Origin: Candidatus Poribacteria bacterium
Lineage (GTDB): Bacteria > Poribacteria > WGA-4E > WGA-3G
NCBI GenBank assembly: GCA_022821965.1
Contig: JAJECN010000030.1
Location: forward strand, 1-41,870
DNA length: 41,870 nt
Direction of reading: 5' to 3'
Below are positions 10,530-18,648 of this stretch, piece by piece. Position numbers and translations under genes: made by a program. Under the pieces are notes generated by a model. That model did not search any database. It saw only the letters and a list, made by a program, of their open reading frames with translations, and was not told where the DNA came from. How positions within the stretch are numbered: the first letter of the stretch is position 1; every line of letters begins with the position of its first letter.

Positions 10530-11972
10530 TTAAGTTCGCGAGGGGCGTTTTCGTAACCTTTTTATCCACCTTTGCGCCTTCGCGATGTTAGTGTCAAAAG
10601 GCTCTTTCATCTCAAAATATTCTGTATGTCCTGCATATATTTGATGCCAATCAACGATGCATGGCATCCTGTTTTGAGTTAGGGTATGCATCAGAAATGC
10701 CCGAACTTTGGCACGGGTATCTTGCGGCGCATTGTCAATAGCATGCTGAATGTGTTCATCCGTAACAACCCGTTGCATCTGTCCTTGCTCCTGAAGCGCG
10801 TAATAGAGTCCACTTTCAGTATGGATATTATGATATTCTAAATCTTGACTTTTAATCCAAGCATCTTCCCAATCAAGTTCTTCTTCAGCAATGAAAGCTT
10901 CAAGCAACCATTTCTTGGCAGCCCAATCAACACGATCAATGACGTTTTGCCAATCATCTTCAAGGTCATCAAGGATAGATTCCCATGCCGAGAGGACCCA
11001 CTCGGTCTCTTCGTCATGTTCAGTAATGAACGCTTGAACGAAGTTCAGATATTCCCGCTGCAAATCAACAGCAGAGATCGTCTTTCCAGATTTCAGTTCA
11101 ACGCGCCACATGAAAGTATGATCACGTGAGATGTGCCGAATCGCGTACACCGGGTCGGCAAGTTCAAAACCGGGGAGCGGCAATTTTTCCCCATGCATCT
11201 CATGAAATATTTCAATAGCAGAGAGTAAGAGTGCTGTAGTCCCAACCTTCAACGCGGTCGCGTACTCCGACATATTGGAGTCCCCAACGAGGAGATGGAG
11301 GCGACGGTATTTCGTGTAATCGCTGAGCGGTTCGTCTCGCGTATTAATAATCGCCCGACTGAACTGGATCCATTCATAAATTTCGGTAACGATGTGATCT
11401 GCGCGTTGCGAAATTTGATAGTGCTGTTGCTCACCGAGTTCATCCTGAAAATCGCCGAACTCGATCATCTCATCATAAGCACCAACCCTGCCCGCGCCCG
11501 CGTAAATCTGACGGGTAACGAAGAACGGCATGAGCGTTGGAATAACGACGCGGTAAAAAGGAACATCTCGACTGATTTGGAAATTTTCGTGACATCCGAA
11601 GGTCGCACCCGTAAAATGGTCAATATTGTTTTTGAAGAAAGCTGTAGGCAATCCAGTATCCATGAGGATATTGTTGATGATACGTTCAATCGCTTTATCA
11701 TAAGCAATGAGGTCAAAAAGCGTAGCACATTCGGGCGTAGCGTACTCAAGATGACCCATATCAATATAGAGACGACCGCCATTAAAGAGGAAACCACCGT
11801 TACCGGGCGGTTCACCCCAATCTCGGTAGTGAATGTCACGCAGACCGAGTTCCAGAACATCAAAGACGTAGTCGCGAACACGGGCAGCGACACCCTCAGA
11901 AGTGCCACGAATCCGTTCGGCATCGGTCATACATCCAAATTCAGTTTCGATTCCAAAAATTCTTTTGTTCAC
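10530..11972 (-). CDS. pafA: PafA-type ligase for the ubiquitin-like modifier
   Basis: The 480-residue enzyme belongs to the Dop/PafA carboxylate-amine ligase family, which uses ATP to activate the C-terminal Glu of Pup-like proteins and join it to a lysine. Visible motifs are GIETEFG at 7-13 (metal-binding Glu residues), NGGRLYIDMGHLEYATPEC at 64-82 with the catalytic Asp at 71, FKNN, FGCHENF, QISQRADH, INTRDEPLSDYTKYRRLH and GDSNMSEY. I call it PafA rather than Dop for two reasons. It lacks the long N-terminal loop seen in the other family member here, and its end (VDWHQIY...KEPFDTNIAKAQRWIKRL) matches the PafA C-terminal domain. Start is GTG, because no in-frame ATG precedes the conserved N-terminus. 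It follows prcA by 15 bases. Confidence 0.9.
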   Translation of the reverse strand: MNKRIFGIETEFGCMTDAERIRGTSEGVAARVRDYVFDVLELGLRDIHYRDWGEPPGNGGFLFNGGRLYIDMGHLEYATPECATLFDLIAYDKAIERIINNILMDTGLPTAFFKNNIDHFTGATFGCHENFQISRDVPFYRVVIPTLMPFFVTRQIYAGAGRVGAYDEMIEFGDFQDELGEQQHYQISQRADHIVTEIYEWIQFSRAIINTRDEPLSDYTKYRRLHLLVGDSNMSEYATALKVGTTALLLSAIEIFHEMHGEKLPLPGFELADPVYAIRHISRDHTFMWRVELKSGKTISAVDLQREYLNFVQAFITEHDEETEWVLSAWESILDDLEDDWQNVIDRVDWAAKKWLLEAFIAEEELDWEDAWIKSQDLEYHNIHTESGLYYALQEQGQMQRVVTDEHIQHAIDNAPQDTRAKVRAFLMHTLTQNRMPCIVDWHQIYAGHTEYFEMKEPFDTNIAKAQRWIKRLRKRPSRT

Positions 11973-11987
11973 AATTTATGTCCGTTA

Positions 11988-12758
11988 TTATGGAAGTGCG
12001 GCTTCAATTTCCTCAGGAGCCAACAGCCGAAACTTGCTTGTCCCGCGTTGCGCGATTTCCAAAACGCCTGCCTCAATCTCGCCATCTTCGCGGGCAACGC
12101 CAATAATCTCATGCATCTGCGTGGTATCTATCTGTGTGTCCTCCGATTCGGCATCTTCCGGTTCCCGAGAACTTAATTCCCTACCGACTGCCCACGTTTC
12201 TAAACCCAACTGGAGCGCAGCAGTTAAATCTCTGTCGGTATCAGTAGACGCAGCAGCAAGGTAGTTTTGCATGCCTTCTTCAATCGCCCCTGTACCACCA
12301 ATAACAGTAGAGGTCGTGTCTGTCCGAACATTCCCGTCATAGTTGATACAGGTAAAACGGTTTTTCTCAGAGGTGCCGCCGAGTTCGGCAAGCAACATTT
12401 TAATAATATACGCCTCACCAACAATGGACTCAAACGCCTGTTTGAAGGTGTGCGCCAAGACAAAATTCGTGAGTCGATGTAGATTTACATCTTCGGTGGC
12501 GTTCTGAAAACCCTGAACGCTGGCAGTATCCGTAACAAGCATCCGAAGACGCTCAATATCGGCGGGGTGTCCGATTGCGGAGAGGGCAATCCGATCATGT
12601 ACCTCAAAAATTTTGCGTTGTCCTCTACCGATAGTGAGGAGCACCATGCCTTCATTATAGGTAAGTCCTACAACAGGACTCCCAACCCGGAGTTGGTCTT
12701 CAATGTAATCTCGTCTGTCTTGGATCGCTTCTATCCAGCGATACGGTTCATCTCGCAT
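11988..12758 (-). CDS. prcA: 20S proteasome alpha subunit
   Basis: The 256-residue protein forms the outer, non-catalytic rings of the bacterial 20S core. Recognisable elements are the N-terminal gate region followed by VGLTYNEGMVLLTIGRGQRKIFEVHDRIALSAIGHPADIE. This is the usual alpha-subunit order of first strands, the K-I-xEVHDRI loop and the H-P-A-D helix start. Length is within the normal range for PrcA. The C-terminal 40 residues after AVGREL are acidic, then EIAQRGTSKFRLL returns to the conserved terminal strand. It lies 44 bases after the Kelch gene instead of directly after prcB. The ATG is preceded only weakly by GAGGA about 13 bases ahead. Confidence 0.92.
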   Translation of the reverse strand: MRDEPYRWIEAIQDRRDYIEDQLRVGSPVVGLTYNEGMVLLTIGRGQRKIFEVHDRIALSAIGHPADIERLRMLVTDTASVQGFQNATEDVNLHRLTNFVLAHTFKQAFESIVGEAYIIKMLLAELGGTSEKNRFTCINYDGNVRTDTTSTVIGGTGAIEEGMQNYLAAASTDTDRDLTAALQLGLETWAVGRELSSREPEDAESEDTQIDTTQMHEIIGVAREDGEIEAGVLEIAQRGTSKFRLLAPEEIEAALP

Positions 12759-12802
12759 TTCTTAATTATGTTCCTCGCTACAGGTTATCTGTGTTTCATC
12801 TT

Positions 12803-13927
12803 TTATTGTGTCATTTTAATCGCTGCCCACGTTTTCAGAAGTTTTCCTATTGGCGTGATGAGCTCACGAACTATTGCCGTGTCATAAACCTCAACATTTA
12901 CAAGTGGATCTTCATCACCGCCGCTATTTCCACCAAGGATATAGATTTGCCTATTTATTGGCTGAGCCCCATGACCATCTTTACCGGTTGGCATGTCCGG
13001 TGCCTGAGTCCAGTGACCGGTTTCAGGATCAGAAATTTCAATCGTTGGTAAATACAAGTAGGGTCCCTTGTCTCTGAAACCACCACCTATTACATATATT
13101 TTTCCATCCACAACACTTGCCGTATGAGCTGATTTTGGGGTAGGCATCTCTGCTACATCTGTCCAACGATTTGTTTTCGGATCGAAGACCTCAACACTGG
13201 AAAGAAAAGGACCTGGATGATTTGGAATCTGGGGCCACCCTACCCCACCCATAGCGTAAATCTTTCCATCCACAACACTGACTGCAGCACCAGAGCGAAC
13301 ATGGTTCATACTTCTGGCTTTTGCCCATGTGTCAGTGACTGGGTCATATACCTCCACGGTTTTTAGCCGCGTCGGTTTCTTTTCCTTAAAATTAATGGTT
13401 GCTGTTCCACCGATGGCATATATTTTTCCATCTACAACACAGGTAACAGTCTGCCTGGATGTTGGCATATCCGCTTTCCGCGTCCACGTATCTGTAACTG
13501 GATCATACCTTTCCACGGTTGGAAGTTCTTTAGCATCCCATACTCTAACTTTTCTCCACTCATCCCTAACCTTATCAAAGACATCAATTTCAAATCTCTT
13601 CAGTTCCGTTCCACCAATAGCGTAGACTTTTCCGTCTACAACCGAAACAGATGCACCGGTGCGGGCTGTCGGCATATCCGCCTTTTGTTCCCATGTATCG
13701 GTTTTAGGGTCGTACATTTCGACCGTTGAGATGGACAAGTTTCCAAATCCCTCAACCTCGCCCCCGATTGCGTATATCTTTCCATTTACAATACATGTAC
13801 CAAAACCGGAGCGTTGTGTCGGCATATCTGCTTTCCGGACCCAATTTTCTTCAGCGGCAAGATTGACAACGTTGATAACCAACAGTGCACACAAACTAAG
13901 AATTCCGAAGGTCAGATGAGTTTTCAC
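12803..13927 (-). CDS. Secreted Kelch-repeat protein inside the proteasome operon
   Basis: The 374-residue product has a signal peptide (LTFGILSLCALLVINVVNLAA, cut near residue 25). It then has six Kelch repeats, each with the pattern VExYDPxTDTWxxKADMPTxR...VVDGKIYAIGG, enough for one beta-propeller. It ends in TPIGKLLKTWAAIKMTQ, the tail shared with three other exported proteins in the window. It is tightly embedded: 14 bases after prcB, 44 bases before prcA, same strand. Start is GTG with GAGG seven bases ahead. The proteasome is cytoplasmic while this protein is exported, so a direct part in proteolysis is doubtful. It may be a passenger inserted between two genes usually adjacent. No catalytic motif is seen. 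Confidence 0.88.
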   Translation of the reverse strand: MKTHLTFGILSLCALLVINVVNLAAEENWVRKADMPTQRSGFGTCIVNGKIYAIGGEVEGFGNLSISTVEMYDPKTDTWEQKADMPTARTGASVSVVDGKVYAIGGTELKRFEIDVFDKVRDEWRKVRVWDAKELPTVERYDPVTDTWTRKADMPTSRQTVTCVVDGKIYAIGGTATINFKEKKPTRLKTVEVYDPVTDTWAKARSMNHVRSGAAVSVVDGKIYAMGGVGWPQIPNHPGPFLSSVEVFDPKTNRWTDVAEMPTPKSAHTASVVDGKIYVIGGGFRDKGPYLYLPTIEISDPETGHWTQAPDMPTGKDGHGAQPINRQIYILGGNSGGDEDPLVNVEVYDTAIVRELITPIGKLLKTWAAIKMTQ

Positions 13928-13941
13928 GGTTTACCTCTATT

Positions 13942-14802
13942 TTAAGATTGTGCCTCAGCGTAACGCGCTTCCAATTCATCATCGGAAATATCTTCAACGC
14001 CAATGCGTGTCACAGTCTTTACATTTGGAAATATTTGCGCTCTGGCGTTGTAACCGCTCGTCGCTGCATCGTACTCACTTGCTGTGTCCAAAAGTCGCAA
14101 GATCGTGATAGTTGCTTGTTGTTCATCCATCTCCTGCAAGGGTGTATCCCCGAACCGAGAGAGGTAACGTAACACACCCCGGATCCAGATGGAACCGGAA
14201 CCAGTGGTGGCAAAATTGACGTTCTCAAAGTGCGCACCGAGTGCATCATAAAAGAAAATCTTTCCGCCATTCTCTTCATCGGCGGCACCTAAATCATACA
14301 ACGCAAAGATCGGGATAACACCCCCGATACCTTGGAGTGCCATCGGCAGATTGTCTCGAATGAGCCGGGACAACATTCGGAGTTTACCTTCAAGGCTCAA
14401 CTCCTGAAGTTGACTGCGGCGAAAGTATTGGAAAGAATGCTCCAATACTCTGGCAATCTCATAAGCAATTGCAGGCGAACCTGAAATGGCAAGCACAGAA
14501 TGCTTATCAATCTGCAAGACCTTTTCTGCTCGGTCATAAATAACAGAGGTACCAGCAGTCGCTCGCCGGTCACCTGCGATCATGACACCCTCCGCGTAAC
14601 GAACAGCCACAACAGTAGTACTATGCGCTATCTCAACATCGACACCGTGTTGTGCGGTGTCCGATGGCAAGTCTATCTTCAAGGAGTAGTTGGCGTGTTT
14701 CAAGAGGTTGAGGAAGTCGCCCTTATGGTTCATGACTTCCTTTAGCGCAAACTCTTCATGCTCCACGCCCATTCGATTCAGGAAATTGCCCTTACCGTTC
14801 AT
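13942..14802 (-). CDS. prcB: 20S proteasome beta subunit (catalytic)
   Basis: The protein has 286 residues from the ATG at 14802. A roughly 61-residue propeptide is removed autocatalytically at AHS|TTVVAV to expose Thr62 as the N-terminal nucleophile. The other catalytic residues line up: Asp78 in AGDRRAT (Asp17 of the mature chain) and Lys94 in RAEKV (Lys33). Later beta-subunit features ATTGSGSIW and DTASEYDAATSGYN are present. TGATG overlaps the UBact stop and this ATG by one base, a classic translational coupling; an in-frame GTG three bases earlier is equally possible. The cleavage site has Ser instead of the usual Gly before Thr (HSTT rather than HGTT), which is a mild variation. Confidence 0.93.
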   Translation of the reverse strand: MNGKGNFLNRMGVEHEEFALKEVMNHKGDFLNLLKHANYSLKIDLPSDTAQHGVDVEIAHSTTVVAVRYAEGVMIAGDRRATAGTSVIYDRAEKVLQIDKHSVLAISGSPAIAYEIARVLEHSFQYFRRSQLQELSLEGKLRMLSRLIRDNLPMALQGIGGVIPIFALYDLGAADEENGGKIFFYDALGAHFENVNFATTGSGSIWIRGVLRYLSRFGDTPLQEMDEQQATITILRLLDTASEYDAATSGYNARAQIFPNVKTVTRIGVEDISDDELEARYAEAQS

Positions 14803-14999
14803 CACTCCCCCGTTCTTTGGCGGTAGCGTCGGGACTGGTCTTTGTCAACACGCCGCATGCGCTTAAGCAGTTCTTGCGTGTCGGGCCGACTGACTTTCTG
14901 CCGCTTTGGTCCTTCATTATCACCATCGCCATCATCCGGTCCAATGGGTTTCGTATCTCTCTGTTTGCGTTCAAGCTGAGCAATTATTTCGGATGCCAT
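14802..14999 (-). CDS. ubact: UBact, Pup-like protein modifier
   Basis: The 65-residue, highly charged and probably disordered protein has the position, size and composition of Pup. It ends in RQRTGE, the R[TS]GE signature described for UBact from Gram-negative bacteria, rather than the GGQ of actinobacterial Pup. The terminal Glu is therefore encoded and no deamidation is needed before PafA can use it. The middle segment (VSRPDTQELLKRMRRVDKDQ) is the likely helix that docks into the ARC coiled coil. A D/G-rich stretch precedes it (residues 20-30). AGGAG lies seven bases before the ATG. The gene sits between dop and prcB, as pup does in mycobacteria. A frame-shifted open frame at the same place is a shadow. 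Confidence 0.92.
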   Translation of the reverse strand: MASEIIAQLERKQRDTKPIGPDDGDGDNEGPKRQKVSRPDTQELLKRMRRVDKDQSRRYRQRTGE

Positions 15000-15017
15000 T
15001 CTGTTTCTCCTTTTCAG

Positions 15018-15158
15018 TAGTTATCAGTTGTCAGTTACCAGTTGAATGGTTACCAGTTCAGAGAACGTTGTGGCAGTTGCAAACGATTGCAATCACCACA
15101 CACTTTAACTGAAAACCGAAAGGGTTGCGTAGCAACCCGAACTAATAACTGACGGCTA
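15018..15158. repeat. Dispersed palindromic repeat, copy R2
   Basis: This inverted-repeat element fills the gap between dop and UBact. The left arm TAGTTATCAGTTGTCAGTTACC mirrors the right arm TTTAACTGAAAACCGAAAGG...AATAACTGACGGCTA. Inside it are two smaller palindromes: TTGCAA-ACGA-TTGCAA at 15077-15092 and GGGTTGC-GTA-GCAACCC near 15122-15138. The second could act as a terminator-like or processing hairpin between the two coding regions on either strand. Confidence 0.7.
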
Positions 15159-15161
15159 TTC

Positions 15162-16676
15162 TCATAGACGTAATTTTTCAATAAGGGTTTCAACATCCGG
15201 CGATTGATCTAATGCCTCGTTATACTGATGGGCAATTTCCGCATCGGCGAGAGCATTCAGATTAACTTCGCGCGTGCGTCCGTTTACAGTGAAGGTGATA
15301 CTATCCCATTGAATCGCTTTTATACAGCTGCTGAATCGATCAACAGCGCGTCCACGGAAGTACGCCCGCGTGCCAGCAGGCGGGTTATGAAGTGCAGCGT
15401 CAATCTGTTCATCCGTAACAACACGCCGCATCGGAATCCCATAGTATAGCCCTTCGTCTAAGTCAATGTTATGGTATTCCAAATCCAAACTTTGGAGCCA
15501 CACGTCATCCCACGCAATTCCTTCTTCTTCAATAAAGGTTTCAAGCAACCACTTCTTCGCAACCCAATCAAGTCGGTCAATAAGGGACATCGGATCCGTC
15601 TCAAGCGCGTTAAGAGTATCCTCCCATTCGGTGAGCACCCAGTCAGTTTCAAATCCTCCATCTTCGCTGAGATATTTCTGTGCGAGCGCAAGGTACTCAC
15701 GTTGATGGTCAATGGCGGACATCGTTTTCCCTTCTTCCGTCATCACCATCCATCGATACGTCTGGTCATGCGATACAGTCTTAATGGTATCAATCGGGTT
15801 GACAAGTGCTAAACTCGCTGGAATCCTCCGTTGTTCAATCAAAGTAATAACGAGCGCGGTCGTACCGACTTTAAGTGCCGTTGCGTACTCGGACATATTC
15901 GCATCACCTGCGATGCCGTGCAACCTACGGTATTTAGACGCATCCGCGTGCGGTTCATCTCGTGTGTTGACGATGGGACGATTGTGCATCGTATCCACGC
16001 TCGCCTCCACGTGAAAGAAATCGGAGCGCTGCGATAGTTGGTAATGTCCCGGTGTAGCGAGTCCTGCTTCTGTTTCAATACCGAGTTTTCCCGCCCCCGC
16101 AAAGATTTGGCGCGTGATAAAGAACGGCATAATGCCCTGTTTGAGCGTCTCAAACGGAACTTCGCGTGCCATCAGGTAGTTATCGTGACAACCGTAACTA
16201 TGCCCATGAAAATCGGTATTATTCTTGTATAAAAGCACCCGCTTCCCGAGTTTTTCGCTTCGGGTTTCGGCGCACCGCTGAAGGATACGTTCCCCTGCCT
16301 TATCATGCGCGACAAGATCAAACAGACGACTGCACTCAGGTGTAGAATACTCCGGATGTGCATGGTCGTTGTAAAGCCTCGCACCGTTGGCAAGGATGTG
16401 ATCACTCTTGATTTCAGCAAAAGAGAGCCGCTCTTTAGTATTACGTTTCCGGTCGCGTTCCTCTTCCTTTTTTTCATCAGGATGATTTGAAAGTGAATTC
16501 GCGCGAAAGCCGCGTTCATCTCGAAATGGGTCTTCGCCGCTGTAGTCCCAGACCGGACGAAAATCCTCCTGGCGATAACTTTTTATTAGCTCAATCGACT
16601 GCTTGACGGCATCAATGTGCGCTTCATTTTCGAGCGTTATTCCGTATTCAGTTTCGATCCCAAAAAGTCTTTCCAT
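15162..16676 (-). CDS. dop: Dop-type deconjugase of the ubiquitin-like modifier
   Basis: The 504-residue member of the Dop/PafA family matches mycobacterial Dop in length. Motifs include GIETEYG (6-12), VWDYSGEDPFRDERGF (42-57), NGARLYNDHAHPEYSTPEC with the key Asp at 104, LYKNN, YGCHDNYLMAR, NTRDEPHADASKYRRLHGIAGDAN, and the Dop-like end PPAGTRAYFRG...IQWDSITF. The long, charged 58-90 segment corresponds to the Dop loop absent from PafA. Dop normally deamidates Pup-Gln and removes Pup from substrates; since UBact already ends in Glu, only the removal reaction should be needed. The start codon abuts repeat R3 with no purine-rich ribosome site, so translation may depend on arc upstream. Confidence 0.92.
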   Translation of the reverse strand: MERLFGIETEYGITLENEAHIDAVKQSIELIKSYRQEDFRPVWDYSGEDPFRDERGFRANSLSNHPDEKKEEERDRKRNTKERLSFAEIKSDHILANGARLYNDHAHPEYSTPECSRLFDLVAHDKAGERILQRCAETRSEKLGKRVLLYKNNTDFHGHSYGCHDNYLMAREVPFETLKQGIMPFFITRQIFAGAGKLGIETEAGLATPGHYQLSQRSDFFHVEASVDTMHNRPIVNTRDEPHADASKYRRLHGIAGDANMSEYATALKVGTTALVITLIEQRRIPASLALVNPIDTIKTVSHDQTYRWMVMTEEGKTMSAIDHQREYLALAQKYLSEDGGFETDWVLTEWEDTLNALETDPMSLIDRLDWVAKKWLLETFIEEEGIAWDDVWLQSLDLEYHNIDLDEGLYYGIPMRRVVTDEQIDAALHNPPAGTRAYFRGRAVDRFSSCIKAIQWDSITFTVNGRTREVNLNALADAEIAHQYNEALDQSPDVETLIEKLRL

Positions 16677-16678
16677 TT

Positions 16679-16816
16679 GGCTATCAGCAGTCGGCAGTCA
16701 GTAGTCAGTAGTAGTTTGTGTGGGTTGCACATTACTGTGTACCTGCCACAAACCGCTCTTAACTGATAACCGAAGGTTTCCGAAAGCCGACGGCTACTTC
16801 TCTGACGACTGATAAC
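16679..16816. repeat. Dispersed palindromic repeat, copy R3
   Basis: This element lies between arc and dop. The left arm GGCTATCAGCAGTCGGCAGTCAG is mirrored by the right arm CTTAACTGATAACCGAAGG...GACGACTGATAAC. A second internal pair, GTAGTTTGTG and CCACAAACCGC, extends the hairpin. It reaches to within three bases of the dop start codon and five bases of the arc stop codon, so it occupies the whole intergenic gap. Confidence 0.7.
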
Positions 16817-16821
16817 ATCTC

Positions 16822-18648
16822 CTAAATGACACGCGAGCTAGACGCTTTACGCCGTTCCCGCTTTTCAGTTTTGATAGGCGTAACTTTAACAACATTCGCC
16901 GGATCGTAATCAAGGAGCTTGAGCCAATCCTCTGTTGCTTCAGTTGGTGGGAAAATTTCGCTTTCTTGATACTCCGCGGCAAGCGCATTCAATAGGTCTG
17001 TGCGCGAGATGCCACTCTCTTTCTCCGGATTCTCAATCGCACGCTTGAGCGCGGACTCCTTCGCACGCTGGACAATCGACTCAATGATAGCACCGCTGCA
17101 CAGATGTCCTCGATAGAGGATATCCCGTCTTCCACTCCTGAGAGAAACCTCAAGGAAACGGTTGTCCTCGTCCTCACGGAACATTTCATCAACCACCTGT
17201 TCGATTAAATCAGTCACCGCCTTCTCAGTAGGGATAACTTCCGGCGGCGTTTCACCCTCCACCGGCACCGCTTTGCTCTCTCCATCAAGTAATAATTCTG
17301 AAGCAATAGGCAGCTCAGGCGTGAAATAGATGCGGAAGATGTCTTTCGCAGCGTCTGCATCTGGACGCGTCACTTTAATTTTCCTATCAATGCGACCCGG
17401 ACGCAAGATAGCAGGGTCAATCAGGTCCGGACGGTTCGTCGCGAGAATGATAACAACATCCTGTAAAGATTCAATACCGTCCATCTCTGCGCAGAACATC
17501 GGGACGAGCGTATTGGAGATGCTATGGGACCGGAGCGCACGCCGCGTCCCTAATATCGACTCCGCTTCATCTATAAAGACAAATGCGAGCTTGCCATCTT
17601 CTTTTTTCTCACGGGCAATCTGAAAAATCTCGCGTACCTTCCGCTCAGATTCACCGAGCCACATATTAAGAATCTCAGGTCCCTTAATGTGTAGGAAACA
17701 CCCCTCAACATCTTCTCCGCTCTCCTTTTGGAGCCGCTGGGTTAAGTTGTAAGCGGTCGCCTTGCCGATGAGCGTTTTGCCACATCCCGGAGGACCGTGA
17801 AGGAGGAAACCCTTCGGTGCGCTATATTGGAACTGTTCAAAAAGTTTAGGATGTAAGATCGGGAGTTCAATCGTATCTTTAATGCGTTGGATGGTATCGT
17901 CAAGTCCTCCTACCTTCGACCACGGTATGTTCGGTACCGCCTCAAGGGCGTAGACATCTGTCTCTGTGACAGGGAGATGTTCGACCGCGACCCGGAAGTT
18001 CGAGTCAATCCGAACTTCATCACCGGACTTTAGTTTCGCATCTTCAAGGTCTGCGGAGCGTTCGAGGATGACTGATTGTGCGTTCGGTTCTTGACCGATA
18101 CGCAGCCGTCCATCTGGCAGAAGATCGGCTATCTTTGCAATAGGACCGGCATCGTTGTATCCGAGTTCACCAACAACGACAAAAGCATCATTCAACAGCA
18201 CACTGAACCCCTTTTTAAGGTCAGCCGTTTTTAATTCTGGATCAATGTTAGCGTAGTATTCGGATCCACCAACGATAACGCGGGCGATGTCCTCCTTGGG
18301 CAATCCGAGCAAAGTTCCGATGCGATTCGCAGGGGCGGTCAATTTTTCAATCTGCGCCTCCATTTCTGCGTGGATACGGAGTGCTTCTTGCTGAATCGCG
18401 TGGATCCTTTCCTGAAATTCACCTTCATCACTGAGGATAGAGCGACGAAGCTCAAGGAGCCAGCGACGGCGACGATCATCTACCGGGGTCTCAGCAATAA
18501 TATGGTGAATCAGTTGCAACGAATAGCCAGAACTCGTTTCCTCCTCTTCAGGAGCAAGTTCTTCTTCGAGTTCCTCGTCATCTTCAATAAACAGGTCATT
18601 CCCATCAGGGGCTGCGCCAATATCTCTACGATTCTTCTTATCGTACAT
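16822..18648 (-). CDS. arc: Proteasome-associated AAA ATPase (ARC/Mpa)
   Basis: The 608-residue hexameric unfoldase recognises the modifier and threads substrates into the 20S core. Domains run from an acidic N-terminus (20-40), through a coiled coil (about 60-105) that in this family binds Pup, two OB-like beta domains (110-225), to one AAA module. The AAA module has Walker A GPPGCGKT at 285-292, Walker B AFVFIDE with Asp360/Glu361, sensor TNRPD near 404-408, and arginine finger region RPGRIDRKI. The chain ends in KRERRKASSSRVI. The GQYL-type or hydrophobic-Tyr-X tail by which Mpa and other activators dock on the proteasome is absent, and the stop shows no sign of a frameshift. It is the first gene of the train and probably carries its promoter. 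Confidence 0.92.
   Translation of the reverse strand: MYDKKNRRDIGAAPDGNDLFIEDDEELEEELAPEEEETSSGYSLQLIHHIIAETPVDDRRRRWLLELRRSILSDEGEFQERIHAIQQEALRIHAEMEAQIEKLTAPANRIGTLLGLPKEDIARVIVGGSEYYANIDPELKTADLKKGFSVLLNDAFVVVGELGYNDAGPIAKIADLLPDGRLRIGQEPNAQSVILERSADLEDAKLKSGDEVRIDSNFRVAVEHLPVTETDVYALEAVPNIPWSKVGGLDDTIQRIKDTIELPILHPKLFEQFQYSAPKGFLLHGPPGCGKTLIGKATAYNLTQRLQKESGEDVEGCFLHIKGPEILNMWLGESERKVREIFQIAREKKEDGKLAFVFIDEAESILGTRRALRSHSISNTLVPMFCAEMDGIESLQDVVIILATNRPDLIDPAILRPGRIDRKIKVTRPDADAAKDIFRIYFTPELPIASELLLDGESKAVPVEGETPPEVIPTEKAVTDLIEQVVDEMFREDEDNRFLEVSLRSGRRDILYRGHLCSGAIIESIVQRAKESALKRAIENPEKESGISRTDLLNALAAEYQESEIFPPTEATEDWLKLLDYDPANVVKVTPIKTEKRERRKASSSRVI

Follow-up and report, generated by a model that had tools for sequence, protein, structure and literature searches.

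A UBact-proteasome operon and a separate Pup-proteasome operon in Candidatus Poribacteria

The description of UBact from Gram-negative bacteria dates from 2017 (Lehmann et al., BBRC 483:946, cited in PMC12751074), and the system has been little studied compared with Pup; in the literature searched, we found no biochemical study of it, and no solved relative of the tag turned up. For the Pup pathway, it has been proposed that the full set of genes arose in actinobacteria and then spread outward (PMC7947786). In a 2012 review (PMC3511204), the Nitrospirae member Leptospirillum ferrooxidans is reported to contain two entire pupylation systems with very different sequences, one of the two tags lacking the GGE end (Fig. 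2 legend). Dual systems therefore have a precedent.

The window analysed here is a stretch of 41,870 nucleotides, contig JAJECN010000030.1 of assembly GCA_022821965.1, from a sponge-associated Candidatus Poribacteria bacterium. It contains a genuine and intact UBact operon, a known kind of system. It draws its interest from a pairing: with a second tagging-proteasome system, also complete, it makes up a conserved pair.

The UBact operon of the window

The operon occupies positions 10530-18648 of the minus strand, with the genes transcribed in the order arc, dop, UBact, prcB, a Kelch gene, prcA and pafA (Table 1). A sequence-only reading of this DNA had recognised a UBact-proteasome operon in a non-actinobacterial genome, which agrees with the poribacterial host. 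It had listed six components on one strand; all six are present on the minus strand, but the Kelch gene makes them seven. The short gaps and coupled starts that it described hold for part of the operon. The prcB-Kelch, Kelch-prcA and prcA-pafA gaps measure 14, 44 and 15 bp, but arc and dop are 145 bp apart and dop and UBact 162 bp; the only plain coupling is that of UBact and prcB, where stop and start overlap by 4 bp (14802-14805).

Table 1. Genes of the UBact operon, in the order of transcription, with model scores and main features.
Gene	Product	Length (aa)	Position	Strand	Model scores and features
arc	UBact-type proteasomal AAA+ ATPase	608	16822..18648	-	TIGR03689 443 bits; PF17758/PF16450/PF00004
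dop	De-conjugase/deamidase	504	15162..16676	-	PF03136 (Pup_ligase) 550 bits, TIGR03688 482 bits; D104; Dop-loop WDYSGEDPF
UBact	Modifier	65	14802..14999	-	PF20513 65 bits, NF033388 69 bits; C-terminus RRYRQRTGE
prcB	20S beta subunit, propeptide then catalytic Thr		13942..14805	-	PF00227 (Proteasome) 80 bits, TIGR03690 166 bits
Kelch	Kelch-repeat beta-propeller with apparent signal peptide		12803..13927	-	PF01344 254 bits
prcA	20S alpha subunit	256	11988..12758	-	PF00227 31 bits, TIGR03691 70 bits
pafA	UBact ligase	480	10530..11972	-	PF03136 456 bits; D71; without Dop-loop; alpha-loop WIQFSR

The modifier, which the earlier reading had called UBact from its RTGE end, scores well above the cut-offs of both UBact models (65.4 against 27.8 bits for PF20513 and 68.7 against 35 bits for NF033388), and its end is of the G-E or G-Q type expected of UBact. 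The C-terminal half is basic. Neither the Pup models (PF05639/TIGR03687) nor the GGQ or GGE ending of Pup applies to it; it is matched by the UBact models only. Homologues of dop, pafA, prcA, prcB and arc are all linked to it in the window.

The ATPase has an acidic N-terminus followed by OB domains and an AAA module, with Walker A (GPPGCGKT) starting at residue 285 and Walker B (FVFIDE) at 356, and it terminates in -SRVI, in place of a GQYL-like docking tail. These Walker motifs and the catalytic aspartates of Dop and PafA were found in the translations just as previously named. The PrcB triad was likewise given correctly, as T62/D78/K94, if the protein starts with the ATG at 14802; with the GTG at 14805 as the start codon it becomes T63/D79/K95. 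PrcA is the weakest member of the operon by sequence score; its predicted structure (mean pLDDT 88) has the alpha subunits of M. tuberculosis and Rhodococcus as its best fold matches. The predicted PafA structure matches the fold of the Pup-PafA complex 4BJR, the model being of low confidence (pLDDT 68) and used for the fold match only.

The Kelch gene lies inside the operon on the same strand, only 14 bp from prcB and 44 bp from prcA, and eukaryotic ubiquitin ligases employ Kelch proteins as adaptors, both of which would suit a working part of the UBact system such as a substrate adaptor. Such a role is very improbable and was rejected: the gene is absent from the 77 other UBact loci compared, and seven additional matches to it, up to 63% identical, lie at other places in the same genome. 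In addition, the apparent signal peptide points to export, and in another poribacterial genome (G028) the same prcB-prcA gap is occupied by an unrelated open reading frame of 1022 aa (L056:1860-4928). The Kelch gene is probably an insertion tolerated by the operon and not part of the UBact system.

A second operon in the same genome and across the phylum

The genome that contains the window has four Pup_ligase genes, not two. The second pair lies on contig C39, in the arrangement recA-arc-dop-Pup-prcB-prcA-pafA-ppdk (locus L005:6182-13035), which is a complete Pup operon. Its tag has 65 residues, scores 59 bits with the Pup model PF05639, for which it is the only match in the genome, and ends in GGQ. 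The ATPase ends in GGTFL, a GQYL-like tail, and PrcA starts with MSTPYYVSPEQ, as in the actinobacterial protein; with Dop, PafA and PrcB linked, the locus has the features of an actinobacterial-type Pup system. Pup ends in GGQ in the family to which the window's genome belongs, but several other families of the phylum have GGE instead. A fifth Proteasome match of the genome, at C61, is probably HslV. The sequence-only reading was right about the identity of the window operon and incomplete in missing both the co-resident Pup operon and the inserted Kelch gene.

The gaps before dop and UBact in the window (16677-16821 and 15000-15161) and before Pup in the second operon (L005:9433-9584) contain similar-looking CAGTTATCAGT-rich sequence, possibly a small mobile repeat, the likeness having been judged by eye. 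That the 145-bp arc-dop gap is a high-copy dispersed repeat was rejected, as only short partial matches were found elsewhere.

Pup_ligase genes occur in 83 of the 85 genomes of the phylum, mostly four per genome. Of the 85, 76 encode UBact, 78 encode Pup and 71 encode both tags; neither tag was found in the two genomes of the phylum's other class. By contrast, 26 genomes outside Poribacteria that encode a UBact-type ligase carry just two Pup_ligase genes each, and Pup is absent from all of them. All 12 genes of both operons have dN/dS values of 0.02-0.09 against two relatives, indicating strong purifying selection; both systems are therefore under selection and presumably used.

The window's genome is a 62-contig bin with an estimated contamination of 3.88%, which might suggest that the UBact operon is alone in its host and the Pup operon on C39 a contaminant. 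This is highly improbable and is refuted at the level of the phylum, given the 71 genomes with both tags and six single-contig genomes (G080, G082, G083, G084, G023 and G047) that have both operons on one contig. Both operons being on single-contig chromosomes, binning artefacts are excluded. The G+C contents of the two operons are also similar (0.48 and 0.47), and the within-phylum distances of the UBact-type (A) and Pup-type (B) versions match: pairwise distances correlate with r 0.94-0.96 among 13-17 genomes (Mantel p 0.0005), as expected of two operons inherited jointly and vertically within Poribacteria, which is how we read them.

Departures from the common arrangement were seen in several genomes. 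In some genomes of family f7 (loci L064, L066, L068 and L163-L166), arc-dop is on one contig and UBact-prcB-prcA-pafA on another, and in one genome (G006:C3, L162) the UBact-type dop and pafA are broken into several frames, either through assembly errors or through decay of the UBact system there. Because of these split and frame-broken loci, the UBact system may not be indispensable everywhere in the phylum. A genome of family f5 (G004:C215, L170) contains an extra, divergent Pup_ligase homologue, 48% identical to PafA-B, as a 658-aa open reading frame on a contig of its own, and G005 (C812) has an additional partial Pup_ligase match.

Relationships of the two sets of proteins

The closest named relatives of the window's ligase are all from Candidatus Poribacteria; the next are from genomes labelled Latescibacterota or Gemmatimonadetes, at 52-56% identity, in whose loci the genes follow the same order and UBact ends in TGE or TGQ. 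One Latescibacterota locus (L135:7110-7588) has two tandem UBact-like genes, the second of which runs into ...RQRDGGVN and lacks the terminal GE. No relatives of the UBact ligase were found in IMG/VR. Dop-A, PafA-A, Dop-B and PafA-B each form one clade, with the window enzymes joining those of the Latescibacterota UBact systems. In the PrcB, PrcA and ARC trees, the UBact-type proteins are split from the Pup-type proteins plus those of the actinobacterium Nonomuraea, with a support of 100 in each. Both the enzymes and the proteasome of the window thus group with those of other UBact genomes.

The sequence-only reading had named a phylogeny placing the genes inside an actinobacterial clade by recent transfer as one outcome that would refute it. 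Pup-proteasome genes are typical of actinobacteria, and spread to other phyla has been proposed (PMC7947786), so a recent horizontal transfer from that source might be considered. It is rejected on the sequences sampled, and we regard it as highly unlikely: Dop, PafA, PrcA, PrcB and ARC of the UBact type all group with the Latescibacterota UBact systems, apart from actinobacteria and not nested among them, and the operon has been co-inherited within Poribacteria.

Dop-A is 48% identical to PafA-A and 42% identical to Dop-B, and the best tree pairs Dop-A with PafA-A rather than with Dop-B (support 85/77). Both results hint that ligase and depupylase may have split separately in the UBact lineage, but a single classical Dop/PafA duplication is not rejected by the AU test (p 0.42); we therefore make no claim of an independent origin of the ligase.

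Proposed working and comparison with known systems

We estimate a probability of about 0.8 that the window holds a functional UBact conjugation-proteasome operon running parallel to a separate Pup operon in the same poribacterial cell. For both gene sets, the data show completeness, intact genes, selection and shared inheritance; the mechanism proposed is modelled on the homologous Pup system, whose biochemistry is known (PMC7947786, PMC8599861, PMC8755798). By analogy with characterised homologues, UBact would be made with its C-terminal glutamate already in place, so deamidation would not be needed; the resident Pup, ending in glutamine, would have to be deamidated first. PafA-A would phosphorylate the terminal glutamate of UBact with ATP and join UBact to substrate lysines, and Dop-A, in which the Dop-loop is retained, would take it off again. 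The acidic N-terminal region of ARC-A may bind the basic UBact helix, after which the ATPase would unfold the tagged substrate and feed it to the PrcA-A/PrcB-A 20S particle, docking by its conserved -VI tail instead of GQYL. The least certain step is the separation of the two pathways, which might be ensured by the opposite charges of the tags and their binding surfaces, and by the different ATPase tails and alpha-ring N-termini.

Judged from their sequences, the two ubiquitin-like systems that Poribacteria seem to maintain in parallel have tags of opposite charge. The last 30 residues have a net charge of +5 in UBact and -11 in Pup (ranges +4 to +7 and -10 to -12). For the ARC region before the OB domains, the mean charge is -11 among UBact-type proteins, against -1.6 among those of the Pup type. 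Where Dop and PafA both differ in charge between the two systems and do so in the same sense, the UBact enzymes are the more acidic ones at 21 alignment columns and the more basic ones at 6 (p 0.006); the test counts every column as an independent case, although each clade represents a single lineage, and concordance between Dop and PafA across columns is not significant by itself (27 versus 14, p 0.06; Fisher p 0.15). Charge-based insulation of the two pathways is a hypothesis with which these data, from tests that ignore shared ancestry, are consistent.

The ATPase tails and the ligases offer further candidates for separation. In Mpa, the GQYL tail, with tyrosine as its penultimate residue, docks into the alpha ring (PMC8755798). 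ARC-B proteins end in GGTFL, GGAYL, GQYL and the like, and ARC-A proteins of two phyla end in VI, VV, IV, II or IL. The alpha-loop of PafA-A reads WIQFSR, in contrast to the TT and R of Pup ligases; in M. smegmatis PafA, that arginine is required and the threonines help. That the pathways are mutually insulated, made orthogonal by charge reversal of tags and receptors and by a -VI tail replacing HbYX/GQYL, has in our estimate an even chance of being correct. If true, it would offer a natural two-channel system for studying how tag-proteasome specificity evolves.

The two operons share gene order and overall architecture, and their alpha and beta subunits are still 31-34% identical. This would allow for crosstalk, in which specificity stops at the ligases and depupylases while ATPases and 20S subunits mix, so that the input is duplicated and the pathway shared. 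We consider this unlikely, since all five proteins diverged together as an A and a B set, between which no exchange is apparent, and since alpha N-termini and ATPase C-termini differ systematically between the sets. Under the preferred reading of two parallel systems, the ligase, depupylase, ATPase and 20S particle of one system would each have a counterpart in the same cell that serves as an internal control. Exchanging parts between the two in vitro could therefore directly probe tag specificity, ATPase docking and the way in which labour is divided. The suggestion that this locus could serve as a model for the UBact system was optimistic, as the organism is known from metagenome-assembled genomes only.

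What is striking here is the phylum-wide pairing of whole UBact and Pup pathways, the UBact operon itself being of a known kind; in the literature searched, we found no account of Poribacteria with UBact, Pup or both, although such an account may exist. The pairing bears on the proposal of an actinobacterial origin, because a phylum far from actinobacteria inherits two versions that are deep and separate.

Compared with the described UBact system (PF20513, NF033388), the window has the same modifier family, the order arc-dop-UBact-prcB-prcA-pafA and the GE/GQ end, and the Latescibacterota UBact loci share its gene set and order; it differs in the Kelch gene between prcB and prcA and in a genome that also has a full Pup system. 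With the actinobacterial Pup system of Mycobacterium, Corynebacterium and Nonomuraea, the operon shares homologous enzymes and 20S subunits and the same logic, but its tag is basic, not acidic, and unmatched by Pup models, its enzymes score below the NCBIfam cut-offs for Pup enzymes, its ATPase lacks GQYL, its alpha N-terminus differs and its ligase alpha-loop has WIQ, not TT. Leptospirillum ferrooxidans, as described in the review, resembles Poribacteria in being one bacterium with two complete, very different systems; there, the pairing is reported for one species, whereas in Poribacteria it is phylum-wide and resolved as one UBact-type and one Pup-type system.
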